Source: Chitinophagales bacterium
GTDB lineage: Bacteria; Bacteroidota; Bacteroidia; Chitinophagales; Saprospiraceae
Length of the DNA: 64,000 bases
Direction of reading: 5' to 3'
Assembly (NCBI GenBank): GCA_013299105.1
Contig: JAAFJY010000035.1
Location: 1-64,000, forward strand
The position numbers and the translations under genes are program-made. Shown in pieces: positions 1,209 through 64,000 of this stretch. Below the pieces are notes generated by a model, which did not search any database, had not been told where the DNA came from, and worked only from the letters and a program-made list of their open reading frames with translations. Positions within the stretch are counted from its first letter, which is position 1, and the number at the start of each line of letters is the position of its first letter.

Positions 1209-1919
1209 ATGCAAGTCCAACTCCACGCCACTCCTGAAGGCTTGGCCAAGACCTTGGCCGCCCAAACTGCCAGTGCCATTGCTGCCCAGCCAGTCTTCCG
1301 CCTTTGCGCGGCTACGGGCAATTCGCCGACTTTGTTTTACCAGCAACTGGCGCTGCGTAAAGCTGAATTTGTGGATACCGAGCTGAGGTTGATCCAACTC
1401 GACGAATGGGGTGGAGTGCCACCTGAGCATCCAGGCACCTGCATTTCGTACTTGCAACAACATTTGATTGGTCCATTGGGATTGAAGCCTGAACAATGCA
1501 TCGCTTTCCAAAGCAACCCAGTCAATCCCTTGCGTGAGTGCGCACGGGTGCAAGAAGCCCTGAACGCGGAGGGCACAATCGACCTTTGTGTGCTGGGCTT
1601 GGGGGCCAATGGGCATTTGGCCTTCAACGAACCGGGAGCGTTTTTACAGCCTTTTTGTCACTTGGCCAGGTTGAGCGAGGAATCCTTGCAACATTCAATG
1701 GCGGTGGACATGCCCCATACCCAGTTGTATGGCCTCACGCTGGGCATGGCCGATATTTTGTCGGCCCAAAAAATTGTGATGATCGTGAATGGAGCCAGCA
1801 AAAGGGACATCTTGCAACAGGTTTTGCACAAACAGGTCAGTAGCCGCCTGCCCGCTTCCTTTTTGTGGCTGCACCCCAAAGTGGAGTTGTGGGTGGATGA
1901 GGCGGCCTGGCCGGGGTAG
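1209..1919 (+). CDS. agaI: Galactosamine-6-phosphate isomerase/deaminase (AgaI type, NagB superfamily)
   Basis: Members convert amino-sugar 6-phosphates to ketose phosphate plus ammonia in the cytoplasm. This 236-residue protein carries QLDEWGG followed by PGTCISYLQQH, then DLCVLGLGANGHLAFNEPG, and a C-terminal PASFLWLHPKVEL segment. The 'LDEW' and 'GLGxNGH' forms, rather than NagB's DEY and GxDGH, and the PASFLWLH ending match the AgaI branch as I know it. An upstream in-frame ATG at 1140 would add 23 residues that look unlike the family N-terminus, so I chose 1209. The gene ends 2 bp before the convergent ATPase gene. No other amino-sugar gene is adjacent, so substrate preference (galactosamine or glucosamine) is inferred from motifs only. 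Confidence 0.75.
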   Translation: MQVQLHATPEGLAKTLAAQTASAIAAQPVFRLCAATGNSPTLFYQQLALRKAEFVDTELRLIQLDEWGGVPPEHPGTCISYLQQHLIGPLGLKPEQCIAFQSNPVNPLRECARVQEALNAEGTIDLCVLGLGANGHLAFNEPGAFLQPFCHLARLSEESLQHSMAVDMPHTQLYGLTLGMADILSAQKIVMIVNGASKRDILQQVLHKQVSSRLPASFLWLHPKVELWVDEAAWPG

Positions 1920-5832: not shown

Positions 5833-6374
5833 AAAAATGTTGGGTGCGAAGTAAGCTGATCCTTTTATCATGTATCCAGTATGTCGAAATAACATACGAT
5901 AGACGACATACGAAATACGACATTTGATTTTTGGCACGCTGAAAAGTTTTGTCGAGATGAGGGGAATCCGTTTTTCCGTTTTAGGGCCGCAGATAAAATA
6001 AATTGGACATCTTCGTTGCCTCGCTGCGCGAGGCTAGTTGGGAACACGGATGAAACGGATAAAACTGATTTTCACTGATTTCCAGCATGATTTTGACCGT
6101 GATTTTGGCGATAACGTTGCCACGCATAAGACTTATTCTAAAGTCATAGATGTCCATTTTATTTCTTTCCTGTTCCTTAGTATTGGGATTTACTGAAATG
6201 CTTATTTGATACGGTAATCACATTTTGCATCGTGAAACCCTAGCCCGCACTTTGAGCAAGGTGAACTCAGTGCTATTCATTTATTCATCCAAACGCAGTT
6301 TTAACTGACCTTCAAGTGGCTAAAATCACTTTGAAGCTTAGAAAAATACTGCCTGTTTTAAAACCAATTTTACC
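5833..6374. other. Intergenic region with dispersed repeats
   Basis: There is no gene. It holds an imperfect TACGACATACGAAATACGAC stretch near 5887-5925, related to the microsatellite at 39458, and one copy of the hairpin-headed repeat (about 5985-6124). The remaining ~250 bp before the ankyrin gene presumably carry its promoter; no clear TTTG/TAnnTTTG pair stands out. Confidence 0.6.
6018..6124 (+). repeat. Hairpin-headed dispersed repeat, copy 1
   Basis: Head hairpin GCCTCGC-TGC-GCGAGGC (about 6018-6034) is followed by the body GGGAACACGGATGAAACGGA and then TTCACTGATTTCCAGCATGA and a GACCGTGATTTTGG tail. Similarity to the 10658 and 49596 copies extends about 35 bp upstream, starting at AGGGCCGC. 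Confidence 0.75.
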
Positions 6375-10657: not shown

Positions 10658-10752
10658 TGCCCCGCTTCGCGGGATGGGAACACGGATGAAACAGATAAAA
10701 CTGATTTTCACTGATTTCCAGCATGATGTTGACCATGAAGTTGCCGCCACGG
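10658..10752 (+). repeat. Hairpin-headed dispersed repeat, copy 2
   Basis: Head hairpin CCCGC-TTC-GCGGG (about 10661-10673) is followed by GGGAACACGGATGAAACAGA, TTCACTGATTTCCAGCATGA and GACCATGAAGTTGCCG. It lies between convergent genes. Confidence 0.75.
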
Positions 10753-17264: not shown

Positions 17265-17400
17265 GTATTTGAGCTAAAATAAGGTGGACATATTTGCTTT
17301 TAAGGTTTAGCAAAAAAAGAACACAACTTCCTTTCATCCAGTTGCTTTTCTTTTTTCACTAAACCCAAATCCGTCCACCTTCTTTTTTTACGCTCCCTTA
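17265..17400 (+). repeat. MITE-like fold-back repeat, copy A
   Basis: It begins GTATTTGAGCTAAAATAAGG with TGGAC next, and ends with GTCCACCTTC and a T-run then ACGCTCCC. The outer AATAAGGTGGAC/GTCCACCTTATT-type arms and inner GGTTTAGCAAAAAAAGAA against TTCTTTTTTCACTAAACC arms give a nested inverted repeat. It is about 90% like copy B by eye, and matches copy C in reverse orientation. Confidence 0.75.
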
Positions 17401-17627
17401 GGTGTTGTGATGGGTACGACTGAATCTTTTACCCCAATCTAAAACTTTTCAAGCAGAGTAGCACGAAAATCGGGTAAAAAAGTGTAATTCATCCTAACTA
17501 ATTTTGATAAAAAGGCACTTTTTAGGCAGAACTGACAAACCTCACAATGTGCACTCAAAAGCTAGGGCATTGGGAACAAAATAATAACCCATTAGTAATT
17601 TATGGTTTAAAGCATCGCGAATGCCTT

Positions 17628-22885: not shown

Positions 22886-23037
22886 AAGTAAAAACTCAGC
22901 CCAGCGTTTTCGAGCCAAAAAAGATGAAAGAAAAGCGGCCTTTTTGTCCGAAATGCGAATGATGTAAACTTTTACGGCCGATCTTAACAGTATAAAAAAA
23001 TAAATTTGCCGCCAATTTCCTAGCTTGCAGCTGTTAT

Positions 23038-23170
23038 GTATTTGAGCTAAAATAAGATAAACAAATTTGCTTTTGAGGTTTAGCAAAAAAAGAACACAAC
23101 TTCCTTTCAGGCAGTTGCTTTTCTTTTTTCACTAAACCCAAATTCGTTCACCTTATTTTTTTACGCTCAC
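23038..23170 (+). repeat. MITE-like fold-back repeat, copy B
   Basis: Same element and orientation as the 17265 copy, starting GTATTTGAGCTAAAATAAGA and ending TTCACCTTA, a T-run and ACGCTCAC. It fills the 370 bp divergent promoter region between the two propeller-cyclase genes. Its end lies 33 bp before the start codon of the plus-strand cyclase. No other gene-like feature is seen between 22886 and 23203. Confidence 0.75.
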
Positions 23171-23203
23171 TCTGCCAAACCAAGCGACTAATTGATCGAC
23201 TAA

Positions 23204-29562: not shown

Positions 29563-30136
29563 GTGTTTTAAGCGCTTATGCATGTTCCCCCTTTTTGGTG
29601 GTTCCCGACTATTTGGCATTGGGGGCGAAAGCCTCCAGCCAAATGGTTTTAGGGCAGTGTTGAGAAATGGGCAGATGACCTGATCACACCTACCCCAAAC
29701 CCCCTCTCCCCAAAAATCCTGCGCCCAAGTCTGGTAAGTCAAGCCCGATAGATGTTACCCCATCGCTGAAAAAATCTTTGGGATCGGCCTAGATGTTCAA
29801 ATGAGTAATCCAGCCTTCGAGCGTGACCTCAGTGCTGTTAACTGCTCGACGGTGTAACCACCCTAGGCGTAAACGCACCAAATTTCTACAAAAAAGCGGG
29901 TACATATTCAAAGCCAGTTTTGGACTTTAAGGCAATTTCAAATTGATTCAAAAAATTGATTTACAAAATATTACAAAAGAGCATGTAGTGGTTTTATAGC
30001 AAATCCTAAGGGGACAAAAGTGGTTTTTTGTCCTTTCAGGGGTCAAATGTTGTGCTGATCTTTGGCTGGAATAAAAATGCGCCATAGAAGCCACTGATCT
30101 TTAATTCGGCAAATTTTATTCGTGTGTGTGACTCTT
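29563..30136. other. Intergenic region with hairpin and gene remnant
   Basis: No intact gene. A nested hairpin occurs at 29611-29644 (ATTTGGC ... GCCAAAT, with inner GGGGGC-GAAA-GCCTCC). A decayed SGNH hydrolase fragment lies at 29705-29830. The remainder to 30136 is AT-rich and unassigned. Confidence 0.6.
29705..29830 (-). pseudogene. Decayed C-terminal fragment of an SGNH hydrolase gene
   Basis: The plus-strand sequence from about 29705 aligns with 31257-31372, the 3' end of the intact SGNH hydrolase gene: both share GCCCAAGTCTGGTAAGTCAA, then CATCGCTGAAAAAATC-like and GGATCGGC, then ATCCAGCCTTCGAG. Minus-strand translation gives GLTYQTWAQD and DPKDFFSDGV, against GLTYQTWARD and DPADFFSDGVHPSG in the intact gene. 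An in-frame stop and lost His show decay. It is a partial duplicate of the gene 1.5 kb away. Confidence 0.7.
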
Positions 30137-30232
30137 GCCCCGCTTCGCGAGGCTATGCTAGGAACACGGATATAACGGATGAAACGGATGAACACGGATT
30201 TCCAGTGTGACGTTGACCACGATGTTGACCTC
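30137..30232 (+). repeat. Hairpin-headed dispersed repeat, copy 3 (left flank of the GxxExxY gene)
   Basis: Head GCCCCGCTTCGCGAGGC is followed by AGGAACACGGATATAACGGA, TGAAACGGATGAACACGGAT and a TTCCAGTGTGACGTTGACCA tail. It lies 68 bp before the GxxExxY gene, in inverted orientation to the 30721 copy. Confidence 0.75.
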
Positions 30233-30300
30233 AAAAGCAAACCAAATCAAGCTTCGAAATGCTTTCTTTATTTTTTTACTAATTTCAACAAATAGCTAAC

Positions 30301-30684
30301 ATGTTACTTCACAGCAACATTTCAGATGAGATCATTCACTCCTTTTACCATGTTTACAATGAACTTGGCTACGGTTTTCTTGAAAAAGTCTATCAAAAGG
30401 CATTGTTGCATGAATTACAATTGAGAGGTTGCACCGCTCTTTCCCAACAACTTTGCCAGGTATATTACAAGGGATTGGTGATCGGAGAATACTATGCCGA
30501 TATCTTGGTTCAAGATGCTATCATTTTGGAGCTGAAAGCTAGTGAAGCCATTATTAATGAGCACAAGATACAATTGCTCAATTACCTCAAAGCCACTAAC
30601 ATTGAAGTTGGTTTTGTATTAAATTTTGGAAAAAAACCGGAATTTGAGCGCATTATCCTCACTAATGACCGCAAAAGAAGATAA
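30301..30684 (+). CDS. GxxExxY family protein (PD-(D/E)XK-like)
   Basis: A 127-residue protein. It begins with ISDEIIHSFYHVYNELGYGF and contains the naming motif GFLEKVY (G-x-x-E-x-x-Y), then a nuclease-like core YYADILVQDAIILELKA with the D...E-x-K pattern, and a C-terminal GFVLNFGKKPEFERII. The length is normal for the family and all motifs are intact. Family members resemble PD-(D/E)XK nucleases, but no biochemical function is established to my knowledge. The gene is flanked by inverted copies of the dispersed hairpin-headed repeat (30137-30232 and 30721-30807), which suggests mobility or repeat processing. Confidence 0.9.
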   Translation: MLLHSNISDEIIHSFYHVYNELGYGFLEKVYQKALLHELQLRGCTALSQQLCQVYYKGLVIGEYYADILVQDAIILELKASEAIINEHKIQLLNYLKATNIEVGFVLNFGKKPEFERIILTNDRKRR

Positions 30685-30720
30685 AAATGGAGTGAATTAA
30701 TTGGCCATGGCCATTGGTTA

Positions 30721-30807
30721 GCGCAAGGTCAACATCAAGTTAGCGATCAGTGTACATCCGTTTCATCCGTCTCATCCGTGTTCCAAATACCAGCCTGCGC
30801 AGCAGGC
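30721..30807 (-). repeat. Hairpin-headed dispersed repeat, copy 4 (right flank, inverted)
   Basis: On the minus strand, head hairpin GCCTGC-TGC-GCAGGC is followed by TGGAACACGGATGAGACGG and ATGAAACGGATGTACACTGA, ending TTGATGTTGACCTTGCGC. It lies 37 bp after the GxxExxY stop codon. Confidence 0.75.
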
Positions 30808-30884
30808 AAAAAAGCTAACTGTGGCTCGGAACTTTACTCAGAAAATTTCAAAAACAATTGTTAACTTTATCACGTTTACGCAAC

Positions 30885-31202
30885 ATGGAACTCATCGTCA
30901 TAAATCAAATGGAAACCATGAATATCCACTACGACATCGAAAAAGATGGTCTTTATCTTGAAGGCATCGAGAAAGGCATCGAGAAAGGTCGTGAAGAAGG
31001 CATCGAACTAGAAAAACGCAATTTTGTACACAACCTCTGGTCCTTACAAGAGTTTTCTATTGAAAAAATGGCCTCAATGGTAGGACTGGATGAAGAACAA
31101 TTGCTGATAACCCTACTTGACTTGTTACAAACAGAAGAAAATACCTTGGAGGAGGCTTTGGCCATTATTGAACAATACCGACTTCGTTTTTCCGACAACT
31201 GA
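30885..31202 (+). CDS. Short remnant resembling the C-terminus of an Rpn/PD-(D/E)XK transposase-type nuclease
   Basis: A 105-residue frame from ATG at 30885 (a TTG at 30858 could add 9 residues). It contains the repeat-like EGIEKGIEKGREEGIELEKR and a helical tail (IEKMASMVGLDEEQLLITLL), typical of the end of Rpn-family recombination-promoting nucleases or 'putative transposases' common in Bacteroidota. The N-terminal nuclease domain (usually ~200 residues) is missing, replaced by repeat copy 4 and the GxxExxY unit upstream. It is probably a truncated remnant, possibly still expressed. Family call is moderate. Confidence 0.5.
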   Translation: MELIVINQMETMNIHYDIEKDGLYLEGIEKGIEKGREEGIELEKRNFVHNLWSLQEFSIEKMASMVGLDEEQLLITLLDLLQTEENTLEEALAIIEQYRLRFSDN

Positions 31203-49191: not shown

Positions 49192-49263
49192 TTGTTTTTT
49201 GCATTTTTGATCGATGTCTTGGGGCAAAATCTATGGTTTAGGTTTTGCCCCAAATTTTTTCTT

Positions 49264-49409
49264 AGGGAGCGTAAAAAAATAAGGTGGACAGTTTTGGGTT
49301 TAGTGAAAAAAGGTCACTACCAGTTTAAGCAACTGGATTAAAGGATTTGTGTTCTTTTTTTGCTAAACCTCAAAAACAAAGATGTCCACCTTATTTTAGC
49401 TCAGATACC
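49264..49409 (-). repeat. MITE-like fold-back repeat, copy C (inverted)
   Basis: Reverse orientation relative to copies A and B. It starts GGGAGCGTAAAAAAATAAGG then TGGAC and ends TGTCCACCTTATTTTAGCTC. The internal loop is about 10 bp longer than in the other copies. It lies 72 bp after the TonB receptor stop. Confidence 0.75.
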
Positions 49410-49891
49410 TAGTAGTTTGTTTTTTAAGTTTGCTAAACCATCGAGAATGAGTTTTTGAATTGAAGCGTTAAGCGCGTAAAGCCTTTCAGCCTATTACCTC
49501 TACCAATCAGTAGGGGAGATAATTGCAAAAACTTAAAAAACGCCGTACTTAGGGCCGCTGATTAAATGAAGTAAACAAGTTGACCAAAGCTTTTAGCCAC
49601 TTCGTGGCTTCAAGTTGGGAACATGGATGAAATTGGGTTTGGCTGTGGTGGTTTGGGTGTGAGGAAACCCCGATTTCAATTGGCTGCGGCGAAAGTTTAA
49701 GCTCGAAGCTACACACCCGAACTCACACTTACACACCCCAAACCCATTCTTGCGGATTTCCACTGATTTCCAGCGTGATTTTGACCATGACGTTGCCTTC
49801 CACAGCAGCTTTAATAGATGGCCAAAAGCGTATACTTTATTTTTTCGCAATTCCTTATATCTTACACGCCGTTTTTCATCTTTTAAAAGCT
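49410..49891. other. Intergenic region ahead of the NIPSNAP gene
   Basis: No gene. It includes the interrupted hairpin-headed repeat (49596-49801). Sequence 49802-49891 is AT-rich and probably carries the NIPSNAP gene promoter. Confidence 0.55.
49596..49801 (+). repeat. Hairpin-headed dispersed repeat, copy 5, with a ~120 bp insertion
   Basis: Head hairpin GCCAC-TTC-GTGGC (49596-49608) and GGGAACATGGATGAA are followed by about 120 bp of foreign sequence (about 49631-49751), then the body resumes with TGCGGATTTCCACTGATTTC and CAGCGTGATTTTGACCATGA. The insert has GGGTTTGG/GGTGTG-like inverted ends. Confidence 0.65.
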
Positions 49892-52871: not shown

Positions 52872-55800
52872 AGCTAAGCCATGTTTTTTCCGCAAGCTTG
52901 AATGAAAGCAATGCGACCTGCAACAAAAACCAATTTGAACAACAACAGTGTAAACTAGCAAATTTGATGAATGCCATGAATGCTACGCCTATTCCAACTC
53001 AATCGACTCGCTCGATGTATGCAAGAGCGAATGCCGCTACTAATGCCCAAAGCGGTGGATGGAGTCCAGTTTTCAGGACTTTGCCAATTGGTCAAATCTC
53101 TTTTTTGCAAAGAACAGGGTTGTTTTTGTTTTTGTTAGCGGGCATGGCTTTGTCCAGTCCGGTGTTTAGCCAAAATTATACTTGCTCGATCAGCCAGCCC
53201 AATGGGGCGTGTGGTGATGCGGTGATGTACTATTTTGACAAGGATGGTACCATGCACTCCTTTGACATGGTCAGTGGTTCCATGAACTACAGCCCCACTT
53301 CAGGCAGCATCACCATGAGGATTAGGGAGCAGGGTGTCTCTACCAATACTGCTGATGTGTCCTTGAGCATTTCTGGGGGTTCTACTACGGGTACCCCTCA
53401 CGAAGGGCCTTGTAGTGGGGGCTCTACCACTGGCTGGCGGTATTACACCAGTTTCAGTGGCAGTGTTACTGGTACCGGGGCACTTGCCGGGTTACGCATC
53501 AGCATCAGTTTAGGGGGCTATCCACCTTTTCACGTTGGTAATGGCGGCAGTACCGCTGGTGATCCCACTACACCAGGCTTTGCTGCTTGGTCAGTAGCTA
53601 CCGTTAATGCTTGGCCTACTGCTGGACAAATGTATTTCAAGCCAGTTGGTCAAAGCAGCCAGACCGACTTTGAAGGCGATTTGAGCTGTAGCTGTACCCT
53701 GCCATCGACTTCCATTGATTGCGAAGCCAATGTCAACGGTGCGGGCTACAATGTCATTTCCACCTGTCAAGTTACGGCCAATCAAGGCCAATCGCTGTAC
53801 CTGAGTGTCAACCCTAACGTTTCTACCGTGACTTGGACCGGGCCGAATGGATTTGCGGGTACGGGCAACGACGTGCTGATCTCCAACTCCGTTCAACCAG
53901 CTATGTCAGGTAATTACGTGGCAACAGTGACTACCGAGGAAGGCTGTCGGGGTACTAAAACCATCCAAGTGACCATCACTGGGGTCAGTGTCTCGGTCAA
54001 TCATCCAACGATTTGTGCGGGCAGCAGTGGAACCATTACGGCTACTGCTACGGGGGGCACTACTCCTTATCGTTACAACTGGAGCACAGGTGCTACTACG
54101 TCTTCTATTTCGGTCAATCCTACCTCCAATGCTAGTTATACAGTCACCGTTACGGACTTTGCTAACCGAACAGCTACTGCGGTTAGCAACGTAACGGTCA
54201 ATCCACGACCCACTCTCCAGTGCGAAGCGAGAGTGAATGGGACCTGGAGCATTTTGTCCAGTTGTGCCGTTACAGTGCAGTTGGGCAATGATGTCGCTTT
54301 GAGTGTAAACCCACAAGTCAGCACTGTCAATTGGTCTGGTCCGAATGGCTTTTCAGTGACAGGTAACAACGATGCATTCATAGCCAGCAGCATTACCGCA
54401 GCTCAAGTGGGAGCTTACACTGCAACCTTGACCGATGCAAATGGTTGTAGTAATGTCACGACCATTACGGTAACAGCCAATACGCCCAACCCGACGGTAT
54501 CGGTGAACCATCCAACCATTTGTGCGGGAACAAACGGAACCATTACAGCTACTGGTTCGGGAGGCACCACCCCCTACCGCTACAGTTGGAGCAATGGCAT
54601 GACCACTTCTGCCATTACGGTTAGCCCAACTGCAAATGCCAGCTATACCGTTACCCTGACCGATGCAGCCAATCGCACAGCAACGGCGGTTAGTAATGTT
54701 ACAGTAAATGGTTTGCCCAATGCCAGTGCCAGCAACAATGGCCCGCTGACCTGTATCAAAACCAGCGTAACACTCACGGGGTCATCGACCACCACTGGTG
54801 TAAGTTTCGCTTGGAAAAACAGTGCGGGTACCACCATCGCAACTACGGCAGTCACCACCGTCACTACCGCAGGCACTTATACCCTGGAAGTGACCAGTGC
54901 ACAAGGTTGTAAAGCCACTGCCACCACTACGGTGAGCAGCAATACCACCTTGCCCAATGCCAGCGCCTCGGTGAATGGAGCTTTGGGTTGTGGGCGTACC
55001 AGTGTCACTTTGACTGGCACCTCCACCACCCCTGGGGCTACCTTTGTGTGGAAAAACAGTGCGGGTACCACTATCTCCACCACCAGTACAGCTACGGCCA
55101 CAACGGCGGGTAACTATACCCTGGAGGTAACTGACCCTGCGAATGGTTGTAAAAAAACGGTGACTCAAGCTGTGGTTTCGGACAATACGACCATCACGCT
55201 TTCTGGTTCCAGCAGCTTTGAAATTTGCGCAGGCGGTAGTGTGACCTTGTCGGCTACTACCAATGCAACAAGTCCTTACACGGACATTGAGTTCATGCGT
55301 TTTGTGACCCAACAGTCGAATCCTTATACTTCAAGTTCACCCAAAACCTATTTGGGAGGCTTCCCCGTACCAACTTCCAGTGCGGGCAGCATCACTTCCA
55401 CGGATTTTCCAGCTGGCACTACCCAGCAAGTGTATTATGTATATGCTTGCACCAAGCCCGATCCACAGCCTGGTTATTGCCAGCCTTTTGTGGAATACAT
55501 CGTGCGGGTGAATCCCAAGCCTACGGTCAATGCAGGTGCTGACCGTATTATTTGTAGCGGAACCAGTACCACCCTTACTGCCGTAGGATCGGGTGGTACA
55601 CCGGGCTATACTTACAACTGGAGTCATAGTTTGGGTGCTGGAGCTTCCAAGTCGGTGAGCCCAACTGCTACTACAACTTATACTGTTACGGTAACAGACA
55701 CCAAAGGTTGCACTGCTACCGATGCAGTAAAAGTAACAGTTGACAATACCACGATCACGCTCTCTGGTTCCAGCAGCTTTGAAATTTGTACCGGGGGCAG

Positions 55801-58800
55801 CGTGACTTTTGCGGCTACCTCCAATGCAACGAGCCCCTATACGGCCATTGAGTTCGTTCGTTTCTCTTCGCAGCAAGCCAATCCATATACTGCCACGGCC
55901 ACCAAAACTTACCTGGGATACTTCAATGTACCTACTGCTGCGGTCGGTACGGTCAGTTCCACGGATTTCCCTGGGGGCACCACCCAGCAAGTATATTATG
56001 TATATGCTTGTACCAAACCCGACCCAACGGCGGGCTACTGCCAGCCTTTTGTGGAATACATCGTGCGGGTGAACCCCAAACCCACAGTTGATGCAGGTGC
56101 TCCACAGACTATTTGTGGCGGATCAGCGACCATCACCGCAGTGGGATCAGGCGGAACCCCAGGCTACACCTACAACTGGAGCAACAGCTTGGGTGCAGGT
56201 GCCAGCAAAACGGTGAGCCCAACCGCAACGACTACTTATACCGTAACTGTTACGGATTCTAAAGGCTGTACAGCTACCGATAATGTCACCATTACTGTTT
56301 CAGGAACGGGGATCAGTGCCACTGCTGCCAATAATGGCCCGCTGACTTGTACCAAAACCAGTGCCACTATTTCCGCTACACCAACTACTGGCGTCACTTA
56401 TGCCTGGACGGTTCCGACTGGCGTGACCAATCCTGGTAATGTAGCTTCATTCAGTTCTACTACTCCTGGAGCTTATACGGTAACGGTAACTAGCACCACA
56501 TCAGGCTGTACCGGAACATCCAGTACCACGCTTACCCAAAATACTACCGCTCCCAACATCAATGCGAGCAACGATGGTCCTTTGACTTGTACTGATGGCA
56601 GCGTGACCTTGACTGGTTCTTCGACCACCTCGGGCGCTACTTTTGTGTGGAAAAACAGTGCTGGTACCACCATCGCCACCACTGCCACCACCACTGTATC
56701 CACCGCAGGTACTTACACTTTGGAAGTAACGGGTCCGAATGGATGTAAAGCTACTATGACCACCACGGTTACAAGCAATACCACTCTGCCCAACATCAAC
56801 GCGAGCAACGATGGCCCGCTGACTTGTGCCGATGGGACCGTGACCTTGACGGGTAGTTCCACTACCTTGGGCGCTACTTTTGTGTGGAAAAACAGTGCAG
56901 GCACCACCATCGCCACTACTGCCACCACCACCGTAACCACTGCGGGTACTTATACCTTGGAAGTAACGGGTCCCAACGGCTGTAAAGCCACCATGACTAC
57001 CACAGTAGGCAGCAACACGACTGCTCCCAATGCTACGGCCAGCAACAACGGCCCCTTGGGTTGTGGCAAAACCAGTGTAACTCTCACGGGCACCTCAACC
57101 ACTACAGGTGCTACTTTTGCGTGGAAAAACAGCGCTGGCACGGTCATCGCTACTACAGCTACCACTACAGTTACCTCAGCGGGTACCTATACCTTGGAAG
57201 TAACAGCTCCCAACGGCTGTAAAACCACCCGCACTACCACAGTGGTTTTGGACAATACCACGATTACCCTCTCTGGCTCCAGCAGCTTCGAGATTTGTGC
57301 AGGTGGTAGCGTAACTTTTACGGCCACCACCAATGCTACCAGCCCTTATACCGATATTGAATTTGTTCGTTTTTCAACACAACAATCCAATCCATACACA
57401 GCTACTGCGCCAAAAACCTATTTGGGCGGTTTTCCTGTACCTACCTCTAGTGCAGGATCGGTGACCTCCACGGATTTCCCAGCAGGCACCACCCAGCAGG
57501 TGTACTATGTATATGCTTGTACCAAACCCGATCCACAGCCTGGCTACTGCCAGCCTTTTGTAGAATACATTGTGCGAGTGAATCCCAAACCCACCGTGGA
57601 TGCGGGTGCTCCGCAAACCATTTGTGCGGGCTCGCCAGCGACCATCACCGCAGTGGGATCAGGTGGAACCCCTGCATACACCTACAACTGGAGCAACAGC
57701 TTGGGTGCAGGTGCCAGCAAAACGGTGAGCCCAACCGCAACGACTACTTATACCGTAACTGTTACGGATTCTAAAGGCTGCACGGCTACCGATAATGTGA
57801 CTGTTACAGTATCCAATGGTGTTTCCGCCTCGGCCAGCAACAACGGCCCGTTGACTTGTGCTACTACTAGTGCCACCATTTCAGCTACACCGACTACTGG
57901 TGTATCCTATGCTTGGACAGTTCCGACCGGCGCTACCAATCCCGGCAATGTAGCTTCATTCAGCACCACGGTGCCTGGCACTTATACTGTTACCGTTACG
58001 GCTACCGGTTCAGGCTGCACGGCCACAGCCAGTACTACGCTTAACCAGAATAACAGTGCACCCAACATCAATGCGAGCAACAATGGTCCATTGACATGTG
58101 CCAAAACCAGCGTAACCTTGACGGGCAGCTCAACTACTTCTGGAGTTACTTATGCCTGGAAAAACAGCGCTGGAACCGTCATTGCCACTACTGCTAGCAC
58201 CACAGTTCCCACTGCGGGTACTTACACCTTGGAAGTAAGTGGCCCGAATGGTTGTGTAGCTACCACTACCACCACTGTTACCCAAGACCTCAGCCAACCC
58301 AATATCAGCGCCAGTAACGATGGTCCTTTGACTTGTGCTGATGGTACTGTTACCCTGACGGGCAGTTCCACTACAGTTGGTGCCACCTTTATATGGAAAA
58401 ATAGTACAGGTACTACCATCGCTACCACTGCTACCACTATGGTAACCACTGCGGGTACTTACACCCTGGAAGTAACGGGTCCGAATGGTTGTAAAGCTAC
58501 CGCTACTACTAACGTTACCGAAAACAAGGTTCTGCCCAATATCAGTGCGAACAACAATGGCCCGCTGACCTGTGCCAAGACCAGTGTTACGCTGACGGGC
58601 TCTTCGACCACTACGGGGGTAAGTTATATCTGGAAAAACAGCGCTGGTACCACCATTGCCACTACCGCTACTACGACCGTTAACACCACGGGTACTTATA
58701 CCCTGGAAGTGACTGGCCCCAATGGCTGTAAGGCGACCGCTACTACCACCGTAACCCAAGACATCGCAGTACCTAACATCTCTGCTTCTGCATCGGGTAC

Positions 58801-61800
58801 ATTTACCTGTGCTGTTACCAGTGTCAGCTTAAATGGTTCTTCAACCACGCCAGGAGTGACCTACTCTTGGAAGAACAGCGCAGGTACTGTTATTGCTACT
58901 ACCGCTTCTACTACAGTAAATACCGGAGGAACCTACACCCTTGAATTAACTGCACCAAATGGTTGTACAGCTACCGCTACAGTTACGGTTACGGGCAATA
59001 CTACGCCTCCTAATGCCAGTGCAAGCAACGACGGTCCGCTGACATGTACCAAAACAAGCGTGAACCTGACGGGGTCTTCAACCACCTCAGGAGTTACTTA
59101 TGTGTGGAAGAATAGCGCTGGCACCACAATCGCTACCACCGCTACCACGACCGTCACTACGGCTGGTACCTACACCTTGGAAGTGACTGGCCCCAACGGT
59201 TGTAAAGCTACCACTACTACTACCGTTTCAGGGAGCACTACTCCTCCCAATGCCAGTGCGAGCAACAATGGCCCACTGACCTGTAGCAAGACCTCGGTCA
59301 CGCTGACGGGTAGCTCAACTACTACCGGCGTAAGTTTTGAGTGGACCAATAGTGCCGGAACCGTGATTTCTTCTACGGCAACGGCTACTGTCACTACTGC
59401 GGGCACTTATACTTTGGAAGTGACAGCGCCCAATGGTTGCGTGGCTACCACGACTACTACCGTTGTGCAAGACATTAGCGTACCCAACATCAGCGCCAGC
59501 AACGACGGCCCCTTGACTTGTGCCGACGGCACCGTAAACCTGACAGGTAGTTCTACTACGCCTGGGGCTACTTTTGTCTGGAAAAACAGTGCAGGTACCA
59601 CCATTGCTACTGCCGCGACTACTACTGTTACAACTGCGGGTACGTATACCCTAGAAGTAACAGGTCCAAACGGTTGTAAAGCAACTGCTACTACCACCGT
59701 TACTCAAAATATCAGCCTCCCCAACGCCGGTGCCAGCAATAACGGCCCGCTGACTTGCGCCAAGACCAGCGTCAATTTGACTGGCTCTTCGACCACCACT
59801 GGGGTAAGTTACATCTGGAAAAACAGTACTGGTACCACCATCGCCACTACTGCTACTACTACGGTTACTACTGCGGGCACTTATACCTTAGAAGTAACAG
59901 GCCCCAACGGCTGTAAAGCTACGGCCACCACCACCGTTACCCAAGACCTAAGTGTGCCCAATGCCAGCGCGAGCAACAACGGCCCGCTGACTTGCAGCAA
60001 AACCAGCGTTAGCTTGACGGGTAGCTCTACCACCACTGGTGTAAGCTATGTGTGGAAAAACAGCGCTGGCACTACCATTGCTACTACCTCAACTACCAGC
60101 GTTACCACGGCTGGTACTTACACTTTGGAAGTAACTGGCCCCAACGGTTGCGTAGCAACGACTACTACTACCGTTACGCAAGACATCAGCGTTCCGAACA
60201 TCAACGCCAGCAACGATGGCCCCTTGACTTGTACCAAGACCAGCGTTACTTTGACGGGCTCATCCACTACCACTGGCGTAAGCTTTGTGTGGAAAAACAG
60301 CGTTGGTACGACCATCGCTTCTACAGCTAGCACCACTGTAAACACCGCTGGTACTTATACTTTGGAAGTAACTGGCCCCAACGGCTGTAAAGCCACGGCT
60401 ACCACCACGGTAACGGGCAACACCACACCTCCTAATATCAGCGCCAGCAACAATGGCCCACTGACTTGTAGCAAAACTTCGGTCACACTAACGGGCAGCT
60501 CAACTACTGCTGGTGTAAGCTATGAATGGACCAATAGCACTGGAACCGTGATTTCTTCTACGGCCACTGCTACCGTTTCGACTCCAGGCACTTATACCTT
60601 GGAAGTGACGGCGCCCAATGGTTGCGTAGCTACCACTACCACCATCGTTACGCAAGACATCAGCGTACCCAACATCAGCGCCAGCAACGATGGCCCATTG
60701 ACTTGTATTGACGGCACTGTAACTTTGACGGGCTCTTCTACCACCCCTGGTGTAACTTATGTGTGGAAAAACAACACTGGTACGACCATCGCTACCACCG
60801 CCACAACAACCGTTACCACTGCGGGTATTTATACCCTGGAAGTAACTGGCCCTAACGGTTGTAAGGCCACTGCTACCACCACCGTTATCAGCAATACCTC
60901 CCTGCCCAACGCTTCGGCCGGTAACAATGGCCCGCTGACTTGTAGCAAAACCAGCGTCACTTTGACTGGCAGCTCAAGTACCAGTGGGGTTAGTTATATC
61001 TGGAAAAACAGCGCTGGTACCACGATTTCTACCACCAATATTGCTACAATAAGCACTGCTGGTACCTATACCTTGGAAGTGACCGGTCCGAACGGTTGTA
61101 AGGCGACTGCCAGCACCACCGTTATCCAGGACATCAGCTTGCCCAACATCAGCACCAGCAACAACGGCCCGCTGACCTGTACCAAGACCAGCGTTACCCT
61201 GACGGGTTCTTCTACCACCACGGGTGTAACTTTTGCCTGGAAAAATGGTGCCGGAACCGTCATTGCCACCACTGCAAGCACCAGCGTCACTACCCCCGGC
61301 ACATATACTCTGGAAGTGACTGGTCCTAACGGTTGTATTGCTACGGCTACCACCACCGTTACCCAAGACAACACCACACCCAACGTGAATGCCAGCAACG
61401 ATGGTCCATTGACTTGTACCGATGGCACCGTCACGTTGACTGCTAGCTCCACTACAACTGGCGTAACTTATGTGTGGAAAAACACCGCTGGCACTACCAT
61501 CTCTACCACTGCCACTGCGTCCGTCACTATTGCAGGTACTTACACTGTTGAAGTAAGTGCGCCCAATGGTTGTAAGGCAACAGCTACCACTACCGTTACC
61601 GAAAACAAGGTTCTGCCCAACATCAGCGCTAGCAACAATGGCCCACTGACGTGTAGCAAAACCAGTGTAACCCTTACTGGCAATTCAACCACCAGTGGTG
61701 TTACTTACGCTTGGAAAAACAGTGCGGGAACGGTCATCGCTACTGCCGCTACTACTAGCGTAACTGCTGCTGGTACTTATACCTTGGAAGTAACAGGTCC

Positions 61801-64000
61801 TAATGGTTGTGTGGCCTCTGCTACCACTACTGTTACCCAGGACATCAGCACCCCCAATGTGAGTGCCAGTAATGATGGTCCGCTGACTTGTACCGATGGT
61901 ACCGTTACTTTGACAGGTTCTTCTACCACTTCAGGTGTATCTTTTGTGTGGAAAAACGGTGCAGGTGCAACCATCGCTACCAATGCCACGACTACAGTTA
62001 CTACTGCGGGTACGTATACTTTGGAGGTCACTGGTCCGAATGGTTGTAAAGCCACCGCCACTACCACCGTTACCGAAAACAAGGTTCTGCCCAACATCAG
62101 CGCCAGCAACAATGGCCCGCTGACTTGTAGCAAAACCAGCGTTACTTTGACGGGCTCTTCCACTACAACTGGTGTAACTTTTGCCTGGAAAAACAGTGCG
62201 GGTACAGTCATTGCAACTGCGGCCACTACTACGGTAAACACAGCGGGTACTTATACCTTGGAAGTTACTGGTCCTAACGGTTGTGTAGCTTCTAGCACTA
62301 CTACCGTTACCCAGGATATCAGCTTGCCCAACATCAGCGCCAGCAACAATGGCCCTTTGACTTGTAGCAAAACCAGCGTTACCTTGACGGGTTCTTCAAC
62401 CACTACTGGGGTATCTTTTGTGTGGAAAAACAGCGCTGGTACGACCATTGCTACCACTGCCACCACTACGGTAATTGCTGCGGGTACCTATACTTTGGAA
62501 GTAACTGGCCCTAACGGCTGCGTTGCTACGGCTACTACTACTGTTACCTCGGACATCAGCTTGCCCAACATCAGCGCCAGCAACAACGGCCCACTGACTT
62601 GTACCAAAACCAGCGTGACCCTGACTGGTTCTTCTACGACTTCAGGAGTATCTTTTGTGTGGAAAAACAGTGCTGGCACTACCATCGCCACCACTTCCAC
62701 CACCACAGTAACTACTGCTGGCACTTATACTTTGGAAGTAACTGGCCCTAACGGCTGTAAAGCAACCGCGACCACAATCGTTACCCAGGACATCAGCTTG
62801 CCCAACATCAGCGTAAGCAACAACGGCCCACTTACCTGTACCAAGTCCAACGTGACCTTGACTGGCTCTTCCACCACCGCAGGGGTATCCTATGTATGGA
62901 AGAAGAGTGATGGTACTACCATTGCTACTACTGCGACCACCAGCGTTACAGTTGCTGGAATCTATACTTTGGAATTAACTGGCCCGAACGGTTGTAAGGC
63001 TACGGCCACCACTACGGTTGCGGAAGACAAAACGCTTCCCAACGCCAGTGCCAGCAACAATGGCCCATTGACCTGTACCAAAACCAGCGTGACCCTCACG
63101 GGCAGTTCTACCACAAGTGGCGTAAGCTTCATCTGGAAAAACAGCGCGGGTACAACCATCGCCAGCTCGGCTACTACTACGGTTACGACTGCGGGTACTT
63201 ACACCCTGGAAGTAACTGGTCCGAATGGTTGTAAAGCAACTGCCACTACCACCGTTACCGAAGACAAAGCCGATCCAAACATCAGCGTCAGCAACGATGG
63301 TCCATTGACTTGTACCAAGACCAGCGTGACTTTAATGGGCTCTTCAAGCACCACTGGAGTGACTTTTGAGTGGAAAAACAGCGCAGGCACCACTATCGCC
63401 AATACCGCTACTACCACCGTCACTACTCCTGGAGCTTACACTTTGGAAGTAATCGCACCAAATGGTTGTTCGGTAAAATCCACCACAACTGTTACCCAAG
63501 ACATCAGCCTGCCCAACATCAGCACCAGCAACGATGGTCCTTTGACTTGTACCAAGACCAGCGTTACCCTGACGGGGTCTTCGACCACTCCAGGTGCAAC
63601 TTTTGTATGGAAAAACAGCGCTGGGACCACCATTGCTACTACGGCTACCACTTCGGTTACTGCAGCGGGTACTTATACTTTGGAAGTAACTTCCCCGAAC
63701 GGTTGCAAAGCTACCGCCACCACTACCGTTACTGAGGACAAGACTTTGCCCAACATCAGCGCCAGCAACAATGGCCCATTGACTTGTAGCAAGACCAGTG
63801 TGACTCTCATGGGCAGCTCCACCACTGCTGGCATAAGCTATGCTTGGAAAAACAGCGCTGGTACGGTAATTGCCACTACCGCCACTACTTCAGTGACTAC
63901 ACCTGGTACCTACACCTTGGAAGTAACTGGCCCTAACGGTTGTAAAGCTACTGCCACTACCACCGTTACCGAAGACAAATCCACGCCCAATATCAGCGCG
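52868..64000 (+). CDS. Giant repeat-rich surface adhesin, 3' end outside the window
   Basis: The open frame starts with ATG at 52868, overlapping the previous stop, and stays open to the window end (3711 codons). After a ~80-residue leader, a hydrophobic segment GLFLFLLAGMALSSPVFSQ acts as signal peptide (late start; ATG at 53015 is an alternative). Next comes a Cys-rich N-terminal domain (NYTCSISQPNGACGD), PKD/SprB-like units (GGTTPYRYNWSTGATTSSIS), and arrays of a 79-residue Ig-like unit (LTCTKTSVTLTGSSTTTGV ... WKNSAGTTIATT ... TLEVTGPNGC): two at 54719, three at 56555, and 25 from 58064. Three 187-residue modules (55181, 55742, 57251) are interspersed. Each 79-residue unit has two Cys, probably an intradomain disulphide. 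It resembles SprB-type T9SS adhesins; the sorting domain should lie beyond the window. Confidence 0.85.
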   Translation, partial: MKLSHVFSASLNESNATCNKNQFEQQQCKLANLMNAMNATPIPTQSTRSMYARANAATNAQSGGWSPVFRTLPIGQISFLQRTGLFLFLLAGMALSSPVFSQNYTCSISQPNGACGDAVMYYFDKDGTMHSFDMVSGSMNYSPTSGSITMRIREQGVSTNTADVSLSISGGSTTGTPHEGPCSGGSTTGWRYYTSFSGSVTGTGALAGLRISISLGGYPPFHVGNGGSTAGDPTTPGFAAWSVATVNAWPTAGQMYFKPVGQSSQTDFEGDLSCSCTLPSTSIDCEANVNGAGYNVISTCQVTANQGQSLYLSVNPNVSTVTWTGPNGFAGTGNDVLISNSVQPAMSGNYVATVTTEEGCRGTKTIQVTITGVSVSVNHPTICAGSSGTITATATGGTTPYRYNWSTGATTSSISVNPTSNASYTVTVTDFANRTATAVSNVTVNPRPTLQCEARVNGTWSILSSCAVTVQLGNDVALSVNPQVSTVNWSGPNGFSVTGNNDAFIASSITAAQVGAYTATLTDANGCSNVTTITVTANTPNPTVSVNHPTICAGTNGTITATGSGGTTPYRYSWSNGMTTSAITVSPTANASYTVTLTDAANRTATAVSNVTVNGLPNASASNNGPLTCIKTSVTLTGSSTTTGVSFAWKNSAGTTIATTAVTTVTTAGTYTLEVTSAQGCKATATTTVSSNTTLPNASASVNGALGCGRTSVTLTGTSTTPGATFVWKNSAGTTISTTSTATATTAGNYTLEVTDPANGCKKTVTQAVVSDNTTITLSGSSSFEICAGGSVTLSATTNATSPYTDIEFMRFVTQQSNPYTSSSPKTYLGGFPVPTSSAGSITSTDFPAGTTQQVYYVYACTKPDPQPGYCQPFVEYIVRVNPKPTVNAGADRIICSGTSTTLTAVGSGGTPGYTYNWSHSLGAGASKSVSPTATTTYTVTVTDTKGCTATDAVKVTVDNTTITLSGSSSFEICTGGSVTFAATSNATSPYTAIEFVRFSSQQANPYTATATKTYLGYFNVPTAAVGTVSSTDFPGGTTQQVYYVYACTKPDPTAGYCQPFVEYIVRVNPKPTVDAGAPQTICGGSATITAVGSGGTPGYTYNWSNSLGAGASKTVSPTATTTYTVTVTDSKGCTATDNVTITVSGTGISATAANNGPLTCTKTSATISATPTTGVTYAWTVPTGVTNPGNVASFSSTTPGAYTVTVTSTTSGCTGTSSTTLTQNTTAPNINASNDGPLTCTDGSVTLTGSSTTSGATFVWKNSAGTTIATTATTTVSTAGTYTLEVTGPNGCKATMTTTVTSNTTLPNINASNDGPLTCADGTVTLTGSSTTLGATFVWKNSAGTTIATTATTTVTTAGTYTLEVTGPNGCKATMTTTVGSNTTAPNATASNNGPLGCGKTSVTLTGTSTTTGATFAWKNSAGTVIATTATTTVTSAGTYTLEVTAPNGCKTTRTTTVVLDNTTITLSGSSSFEICAGGSVTFTATTNATSPYTDIEFVRFSTQQSNPYTATAPKTYLGGFPVPTSSAGSVTSTDFPAGTTQQVYYVYACTKPDPQPGYCQPFVEYIVRVNPKPTVDAGAPQTICAGSPATITAVGSGGTPAYTYNWSNSLGAGASKTVSPTATTTYTVTVTDSKGCTATDNVTVTVSNGVSASASNNGPLTCATTSATISATPTTGVSYAWTVPTGATNPGNVASFSTTVPGTYTVTVTATGSGCTATASTTLNQNNSAPNINASNNGPLTCAKTSVTLTGSSTTSGVTYAWKNSAGTVIATTASTTVPTAGTYTLEVSGPNGCVATTTTTVTQDLSQPNISASNDGPLTCADGTVTLTGSSTTVGATFIWKNSTGTTIATTATTMVTTAGTYTLEVTGPNGCKATATTNVTENKVLPNISANNNGPLTCAKTSVTLTGSSTTTGVSYIWKNSAGTTIATTATTTVNTTGTYTLEVTGPNGCKATATTTVTQDIAVPNISASASGTFTCAVTSVSLNGSSTTPGVTYSWKNSAGTVIATTASTTVNTGGTYTLELTAPNGCTATATVTVTGNTTPPNASASNDGPLTCTKTSVNLTGSSTTSGVTYVWKNSAGTTIATTATTTVTTAGTYTLEVTGPNGCKATTTTTVSGSTTPPNASASNNGPLTCSKTSVTLTGSSTTTGVSFEWTNSAGTVISSTATATVTTAGTYTLEVTAPNGCVATTTTTVVQDISVPNISASNDGPLTCADGTVNLTGSSTTPGATFVWKNSAGTTIATAATTTVTTAGTYTLEVTGPNGCKATATTTVTQNISLPNAGASNNGPLTCAKTSVNLTGSSTTTGVSYIWKNSTGTTIATTATTTVTTAGTYTLEVTGPNGCKATATTTVTQDLSVPNASASNNGPLTCSKTSVSLTGSSTTTGVSYVWKNSAGTTIATTSTTSVTTAGTYTLEVTGPNGCVATTTTTVTQDISVPNINASNDGPLTCTKTSVTLTGSSTTTGVSFVWKNSVGTTIASTASTTVNTAGTYTLEVTGPNGCKATATTTVTGNTTPPNISASNNGPLTCSKTSVTLTGSSTTAGVSYEWTNSTGTVISSTATATVSTPGTYTLEVTAPNGCVATTTTIVTQDISVPNISASNDGPLTCIDGTVTLTGSSTTPGVTYVWKNNTGTTIATTATTTVTTAGIYTLEVTGPNGCKATATTTVISNTSLPNASAGNNGPLTCSKTSVTLTGSSSTSGVSYIWKNSAGTTISTTNIATISTAGTYTLEVTGPNGCKATASTTVIQDISLPNISTSNNGPLTCTKTSVTLTGSSTTTGVTFAWKNGAGTVIATTASTSVTTPGTYTLEVTGPNGCIATATTTVTQDNTTPNVNASNDGPLTCTDGTVTLTASSTTTGVTYVWKNTAGTTISTTATASVTIAGTYTVEVSAPNGCKATATTTVTENKVLPNISASNNGPLTCSKTSVTLTGNSTTSGVTYAWKNSAGTVIATAATTSVTAAGTYTLEVTGPNGCVASATTTVTQDISTPNVSASNDGPLTCTDGTVTLTGSSTTSGVSFVWKNGAGATIATNATTTVTTAGTYTLEVTGPNGCKATATTTVTENKVLPNISASNNGPLTCSKTSVTLTGSSTTTGVTFAWKNSAGTVIATAATTTVNTAGTYTLEVTGPNGCVASSTTTVTQDISLPNISASNNGPLTCSKTSVTLTGSSTTTGVSFVWKNSAGTTIATTATTTVIAAGTYTLEVTGPNGCVATATTTVTSDISLPNISASNNGPLTCTKTSVTLTGSSTTSGVSFVWKNSAGTTIATTSTTTVTTAGTYTLEVTGPNGCKATATTIVTQDISLPNISVSNNGPLTCTKSNVTLTGSSTTAGVSYVWKKSDGTTIATTATTSVTVAGIYTLELTGPNGCKATATTTVAEDKTLPNASASNNGPLTCTKTSVTLTGSSTTSGVSFIWKNSAGTTIASSATTTVTTAGTYTLEVTGPNGCKATATTTVTEDKADPNISVSNDGPLTCTKTSVTLMGSSSTTGVTFEWKNSAGTTIANTATTTVTTPGAYTLEVIAPNGCSVKSTTTVTQDISLPNISTSNDGPLTCTKTSVTLTGSSTTPGATFVWKNSAGTTIATTATTSVTAAGTYTLEVTSPNGCKATATTTVTEDKTLPNISASNNGPLTCSKTSVTLMGSSTTAGISYAWKNSAGTVIATTATTSVTTPGTYTLEVTGPNGCKATATTTVTEDKSTPNISA
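55181..56302 (+). repeat. Two tandem 187-residue modules in the adhesin
   Basis: Copies begin at 55181 and 55742 (561 bp period) with DNTTITLSGSSSFEIC and contain QQVYYVYACTKPDP, YCQPFVEYIVRVNPKPT and GSGGTPGYTYNW. A third copy lies at about 57251-57811. Confidence 0.85.
58064..63988 (+). repeat. Array of 25 units, each exactly 237 bp
   Basis: Units start at 58064 + 237n with AAC/AAT (Asn of N-I-S-A-S-N). The 26th start falls at 63989, so the 5925 bp contain 25 units without any net indel; unit starts checked at 58301, 59486, 60671, 61856 and 63041 agree. Units differ mainly at third codon positions. Confidence 0.92.

Follow-up and report, generated by a model that had tools for sequence, protein, structure and literature searches.

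The window, by which we mean the whole stretch of DNA analysed, comprises 64,000 nucleotides (positions 1–64,000, forward strand) of contig JAAFJY010000035.1 from the Chitinophagales bacterium (Saprospiraceae) assembly GCA_013299105.1. An open reading frame on the plus strand, at 30301–30684, encodes a GxxExxY protein of 127 amino acids with a PD-(D/E)XK fold, as judged from profile matches, conserved residues and a structure model. Score, motif and PD-(D/E)XK residues all place it in the GxxExxY family (TIGR04256/PF13366). In a profile scan it reaches 130 bits against PF13366 (cut-off 22) and 124 bits against TIGR04256 (cut-off 35), and G25, E28, Y31, D67, E77 and K79 are invariant across eight aligned GxxExxY sequences. 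The structure model (pLDDT 90) has its nearest solved fold in 4ic1 (SSO0001, which we take to be a Cas4; Foldseek E 1.4e-4), with further matches to lambda exonuclease (6m9k, E 1e-3) and Hjc (2wiw, E 6.5e-3); TM-scores to these three are modest, 0.45–0.57 by query length, and the Pfam Cas_Cas4 match lies exactly at its cut-off of 22.7 bits. The protein shares its fold with these nucleases but, unlike them, is only of this minimal length and stands alone in its unit. We know of no role assigned to GxxExxY genes, and a literature search on GxxExxY and PF13366/PDDEXK_3 gave none.

The gene is enclosed by two arms. The left arm begins with a head hairpin at 30137–30153 (plus strand; a 7-pair stem with one mismatch and a 3-nt loop, read by eye and compared with other copies), followed by a body at 30161–30232 (plus strand) that consists of an array of GGAACACGGAT words and a tail containing GACGTTGACC. 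The right arm is its inverted copy, with the body at 30722–30784 and a head hairpin with a perfect 6-bp stem, also read by eye, at 30793–30807 (both minus strand). Each arm therefore combines an outward hairpin, CGGAT words in an array and a tail with GTTGAC; the bodies face inward, and an inverted-repeat search joins the bodies over 58 bp at 79% complementarity with a spacing of 508 bp. These coordinates bear out the original prediction that the gene lies between two facing copies of a repeat, heads outward and bodies inward, and the arm ends at 30232 and 30722 agree with the gene–arm distances of 68 and 37 bp given there. The hairpin head, after which the original prediction named the repeat, holds for the window arms, but across species it is the word array that recurs and not this head.

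A second copy of the cassette occurs on another contig of the same genome (G000:C45) and is identical along 805 bp, corresponding to 30133–30937 of the window (plus strand). Outside this tract the flanks are homologous but diverged: the left one is 82% identical over 215 bp, and the right one aligns in two blocks, 232 bp at 73% and 39 bp at 87%. Downstream of the window gene lies the 3′ remainder of an Rpn-like gene (30828–31202, plus strand), and sequence comparison shows that the 5′ flank (29917–30080, plus strand) is common to Rpn-like paralogs elsewhere in the genome. Since similar flanks enclose an Rpn-like ORF of 307–331 amino acids at four paralogous places (L091, L092, L094 and L095), the window cassette occupies the place of the first ~175 codons of such a gene, a figure obtained by arithmetic on the compared loci. 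Rpn proteins (TIGR01784), the recombination-promoting nucleases, are PD-(D/E)XK nucleases, and the case resembles theirs in that this genome has Rpn-like paralogs, one of which is cut short at the cassette; the Rpn label is nevertheless weak for these paralogs, because the two that were scanned score 25–28 bits, under the cut-off of 52. A clean insertion at the two copies (C29 and C45) was rejected because their flanks are homologous too. The cassette was probably homogenised or copied later between the two paralogous sites.

As predicted, the repeat is dispersed through the genome. The core GGAACACGGATGAAACGGAT, with up to three mismatches, matches 239 times (112 + 127 on the two strands) in the 7.67-Mb assembly, whereas the reversed pattern matches 0 + 1 times; for the tail motif TGACGTTGACC there are 289 exact matches, against two for its control. 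Three solo arms without a gene had been proposed within the window. Two are clear, at 6018–6101 (exact core at 6018/6041) and 10658–10737 (one core mismatch, 10658/10677), and the third, at 49596–49640, is present but degenerate, its core carrying three substitutions and one insertion; all three are on the plus strand. Thirty of the 239 copies were inspected; they include five distinct pairs, all inward and none outward. Direct arrangements occur too, as a tandem array on C22 and as a single neighbour in L028. The C22 array (L025–L027, at about 49–50 kb) contains six arms separated by spacers of 199–236 bp. No GxxExxY remnant was found at E 0.01 in these 30 repeat loci, nor a GxxExxY ORF within a 591-bp pair in L030; in these loci the gene-less copies do not look like internal-deletion derivatives of the kind known for insertion sequences and MITEs.

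The same genome holds more than one word family. Among 30 of the 289 TGACGTTGACC sites, 12 follow CGGAT words, 11 follow AGAATT/CAGGATT words and seven follow neither; as two word families share this tail, the arms look modular. A PF13366 search of the genome returned five places, of which one is a weak match that contains a stop. The cassette on C12 has an inverted flank of 133 bp at 86%, and the C23 gene, of another subtype, is accompanied by AGAATT-type arrays instead of CGGAT words, some of them ~400 bp away.

GxxExxY genes are common in the window's order, where PF13366 is found at E ≤ 1e-15 in 100 of 149 genomes. We also examined the best 80 named loci of one scan of genome contigs for inverted repeats between the 300-bp flanks. 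Inverted flanks were found at 54 of the 80 loci (54 of 81 GxxExxY genes); among 630 other ORFs of these loci the figure is 15. One gene is counted per locus, which at L164 is the contig's second GxxExxY gene; counting scan-matched genes alone gives 53/80, the match at L164 having no inverted flank. When seven loci that share a site with another are dropped, 48 of 73 remain inverted-flanked. ParE genes (PF05016) are a fairer control, because the neighbouring ORFs are often flanked by coding DNA, and here inverted flanks were absent (0/27, p 2e-11; 30 loci sampled, three near contig ends skipped). Flank enrichment, which the prediction had called for, is thus seen well outside the window's order. 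Nine of the 15 matches among neighbouring ORFs were scanned, and they comprised six PF05635 genes, one Y1_Tnp, one DUF559 and one epimerase. Arm identity ranges from 70 to 100% across loci. The full set of 119 loci adds 39 to the best 80 (three from the window's own genome, 30 best-scoring and 20 hand-picked with a preference for the window's family, minus 14 duplicates); inverted flanks were found at 79 of the 119 and an inverted flank or a word array at 103, leaving 16 with neither.

Among the best 80 named loci, with phylum taken from the record title, an inverted flank or array was present in 39 of 48 loci from Bacteroidota, 6/6 from Acidobacteriota, 5/5 from Chloroflexota, 4/4 from Verrucomicrobiota, 3/4 from Ignavibacteriota and 2/2 each from Methanobacteriota (archaea), Thermodesulfobacteriota, Planctomycetota and loci with no assigned phylum. 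Single loci from Myxococcota, Electryoneota and Cyanobacteriota each had one (1/1 each), as did the only locus labelled Pseudomonadota (1/1, L202); the one locus from Chlorobiota did not (0/1). The L202 contig carries the label Rhizobium sp.; it is syntenic with Flavobacterium loci (Flavobacteriaceae L191 and L207) and is probably a mis-binned MAG contig. In a search with one query protein at E 1e-5, none of 50,697 phage records and 8 of 72,556 from plasmids gave a match.

Each arm repeats a word of ~7 bp in an array, such as CACAGAG, CGCAAAG or CACGGAT, usually with three or four inverted words. In a de novo count of 7-mers in the flanks of the best 80 loci, CACAGAG was the most widespread (102 against 2.2 expected, in 32 of the 80 loci), alongside CGCAGAG (53 against 1.5), CACAAAG (63 against 2.9) and CGCAAAG (53 against 2.6). 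CACAGAG also shows a strand preference, pointing inward 102 times and outward 37 times. With an array defined as three or more C[AG]CN[AG]A[GT] words, arrays adjoin 55 of the 80 genes, lie on both sides of 33 and face inward on both sides of 28, compared with 48, four and none of 640 control ORFs. Four scrambled motifs gave 0/80 each on both sides and 0–4/80 on any side. A minority of arms are built from other words, for example AGGAGTT at L060 and CAGGATT at L079. At L045/L072 (G057:C30) dozens of CACAGAT words lie on both sides of the GxxExxY gene on the same strand, unlike the usual few inverted ones.

Word class follows protein phylogeny. On a tree of the 80 proteins, which is short and has many open forks, the 52 rows with a word class require 20 changes, against 28.7 in shuffles, with 0 of 500 as low; when classes are shuffled within phyla, 27.6 changes are expected and again 0/500 are as low. 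The last three letters of the word alone give 11 changes against 20.3 (0/500), and the CAC/CGC letter alone fits more weakly (11 against 14.7, 12/500). The signal is present in the Bacteroidota rows alone (9 against 13.9, 0/500) and absent from the 23 non-Bacteroidota rows (11 against 11.6, 228/500). Moreover, a cassette's own partner arm is its best match among arms of the same class in 28 of 70 cases, where 4.9 are expected. To judge from these results, the protein and its word repeats look as if they have changed together.

Empty and filled versions of orthologous sites, which the prediction had proposed looking for, were found in two genera. In the first (18 genomes), G132 carries a cassette between two genes, and among the matches listed for the other 17 genomes both flanks are adjacent in four. 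The slot is empty in G115, G151 and G154, and in G149 (L213, G149:C221, about 1353–1501, minus strand) it holds a gene-less inverted pair of AACCAAG words. In the second genus (six genomes), the slot is filled in G108 and empty in G049, G083 and G102, at flank identities of 85–90%; it is split between contigs in G061 and holds a cassette with other words in G096. Between G108 and G096 the proteins share 60% identity and the flanks 88–90%, so the two cassettes likely arrived independently, although this is not proven. A comparable case is the slot shared by L150 (Bacteroides) and L176 (Phocaeicola), where proteins of different clades are accompanied by different words. Other cassettes are kept at one site between species (L192/L193, L185/L188 and L169/L201). 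No clear target-site duplication was seen in G108 relative to G049, G083 and G102, where the intergenic DNA is diverged, and by eye no arms were visible in the empty sites of these three genomes.

Some genomes of the window's order contain dozens of copies of CACAGAG..CACAGAG or CGCAAAG..CGCAAAG. Equal abundance of such repeats with and without GxxExxY would speak against a link between them; instead, double words (CGCAAAG or CACAGAG) occur at three or more places in 44 of 100 genomes with the gene and in 3 of 49 without it (p 1.3e-6). The three exceptions, in which the gene was not found at E 0.01, are G133 (154 word pairs; 87% complete), G053 (4) and G082 (4). Because of G133, mean CGCAAAG counts per genome hardly differ between the two groups (4.4 with the gene and 3.7 without; medians 1 and 0). 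Among 19 regions hand-picked in G115, G132 and G149 with a preference for places with two matches, seven contain two arms within ~330 bp, all facing inward (L231–L234, L236, L245 and L247), and twelve have no close pair.

A similar layout surrounds genes of a different family. PF05635 genes have the same inverted flanks, with other words, at 11 of 26 loci (30 sampled, four skipped; at least two of the picks look like wrong ORFs). Around these 23S_rRNA_IVP four-helix-bundle genes the inverted arrays consist of other words, for example TTTAGTA, AGTAGTG and TTTTAGA (L101–L130, L147 2662–3009, L149 2330–2704, L162, L166 and L207). To our knowledge, PF05635 proteins are not known as nucleases.

A small GxxExxY gene that occurs in many bacteria and some archaea, often between mirror-image word arrays, gives the impression of a family of small mobile elements not described before. 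The unit would be a small mobile cassette made of an arm of about three or four ~7-bp words, the GxxExxY gene and a second, inverted arm of the same kind. Most likely its protein, as a minimal PD-(D/E)XK nuclease, recognises the word type of its own arms and cuts or processes DNA there, whereupon repair or recombination would copy the arm–gene–arm unit into other intergenic sites and, in other cases, a single arm or an arm pair alone. Our best reading, which we consider somewhat better than even, is such a selfish cassette, whose enzyme reads its own word and cuts there and which is copied by repair. Support comes from inverted-arm linkage in many phyla, matched arms, clade-linked words, the presence and absence of cassettes at the same site, solo arms, inward gene-less pairs and the excess of words where the gene is present. 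A broader proposal, to which we give slightly less than even credence, is that bacteria and archaea harbour a previously undescribed class of elements that disperse themselves, each with a lone PD-(D/E)XK nuclease that would read changeable arrays of short words as its ends; nuclease and word would co-evolve and gene-less arms would spread genome-wide, and PF05635 elements would form another branch, built on a different protein. The self-mobilising unit of the original prediction is in this way partly supported: inverted flanks, empty sites and the greater number of arrays where the gene is present speak for it, whereas G133, the PF05635 layout, the lack of a clear duplication and of gene remnants, and the homologous flanks of the window site do not.

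The PF05635 parallel is the strongest objection to a self-acting GxxExxY protein. Since these genes share the layout, a mover may be acting in trans: either both proteins are word-binding partners of such a mover, or ends of one kind have been taken up by two protein families. GxxExxY could accordingly be cargo or an accessory gene, with arms moved by a host recombinase or another element and with GxxExxY and PF05635 as two passenger families. The many arms in G133, where the gene was not found, and the TGACGTTGACC tail common to two word families fit this explanation as well, but it leaves aside that word class tracks GxxExxY clade even in within-phylum shuffles, that arrays are more frequent in genomes with the gene and that the catalytic residues are conserved, and we regard it as unlikely. 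Homing, in which the nuclease would cut a cognate site and double-strand-break repair would copy the cassette in, with arms or flanks as homology, would account for C29 and C45 being identical over the cassette and ~130 bp more while their homologous flanks are much less alike (73–87%). Ordinary gene conversion yields the same picture, however, and by eye no arm is visible in the empty sites of the second genus; we consider homing improbable.

In an element acting at the RNA level, like 23S rRNA intervening sequences, the two arms would base-pair once transcribed, and the gene would be cut out of mRNAs by RNase III. A small ORF within inverted arms is what such a model expects, PF05635 is the intervening-sequence protein family, and a passage in PMC4990558 places three GACAGAT heptads ahead of the ORF of the Coxiella intervening sequence, a likeness worth following. 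Arms kept as an RNA stem should favour G–U-compatible mismatches, yet over 79 loci these number 102 against 99 (p 0.89), so a stem is unsupported and was rejected; solo arms without a gene are also common, and this explanation seems to us quite improbable. A 23S rRNA intervening sequence proper was likewise rejected, as the window cassette lies inside a truncated protein gene and the G132 cassette between two protein genes. The resemblance consists in a small ORF inside inverted ends and in the similar word-array layout of PF05635; GxxExxY belongs to another family, protein genes border the cassettes examined, and selection for RNA pairing was not seen. Finally, the arrays might serve in regulation or defence, as operators or as words that mark self, with a domesticated GxxExxY protein binding them and mobility only a matter of the past. 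The cassettes retained at one site between species are compatible with this, but operators leave unexplained the downstream inverted arms, the inward gene-less pairs, the empty sites and the single slot with different cassettes, and we hold it to be highly improbable.

Returning to the selfish cassette, the RAYT/REPIN system, with which the prediction had drawn an analogy, is among its closest counterparts. The cassette functions in a similar way without belonging to that group. Both have a single gene beside copies of a dispersed intergenic repeat, and both have solo copies and gene-less inverted doublets, REPIN-like doublets having been found here. The anatomy of the analogy therefore fits, but the defining Y1 transposase is absent, as the claim of a different fold had implied: a PD-(D/E)XK protein takes the place of the Y1 tyrosine transposase of RAYT, and in the window protein only PF13366 and Cas_Cas4 reach E 0.01, with Y1 transposase (PF01797) not found. 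The arms here are arrays of ~7-bp words, whereas a REP is one palindrome. A GTAG/CGTC-tagged palindrome is a feature of RAYT/TnpA-REP systems (PMC3733652) that arms in the window's genome do not generally bear, such a tag falling in the 45 nt ahead of the core in 4 of 30 copies. PMC3116915 presents RAYTs as single-copy and repeat and enzyme as probably co-evolving; the latter is a likeness, but here, unlike the former, one genome carries an identical second copy of gene and arms.

Insertion sequences and MITEs likewise have inverted ends, short gene-less relatives and presence or absence at orthologous sites. In the window unit, however, no known transposase family was found, the arms are more diverged (70–100%) and internally repetitive, and a target-site duplication is not visible, the compared intergenic DNA being diverged. 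The BrickBuilt MITE of Porphyromonas, described in PMC4596501 as a 23-bp minisatellite with IS-like ends, was judged unrelated. An association of GxxExxY with word arrays was not described in the literature searched, whose scope left most subscription journals outside; a text search with six 15–16-mers built from the words gave 0 matches, and a passage in PMC8934634 mentions GxxExxY as a neighbour of an RT gene. A link between gene and words would give an origin for such dispersed repeats, would make the role of GxxExxY directly testable and would provide nuclease/word pairs as a natural series in which to study DNA recognition; the PF05635 parallel hints at a route that two unrelated protein families have in common.

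Two other repeats were observed in the window. A second dispersed element of ~140 bp, with arms 85–92% complementary, is present in three copies (17265–17401, 23035–23171 and 49261–49411), one of them inverted relative to the others. The end of the window, from 54631 to 64000, contains about 30 direct repeats with a period of 237 bp and roughly 60–80% identity, and this region is perhaps a very large repetitive protein gene.
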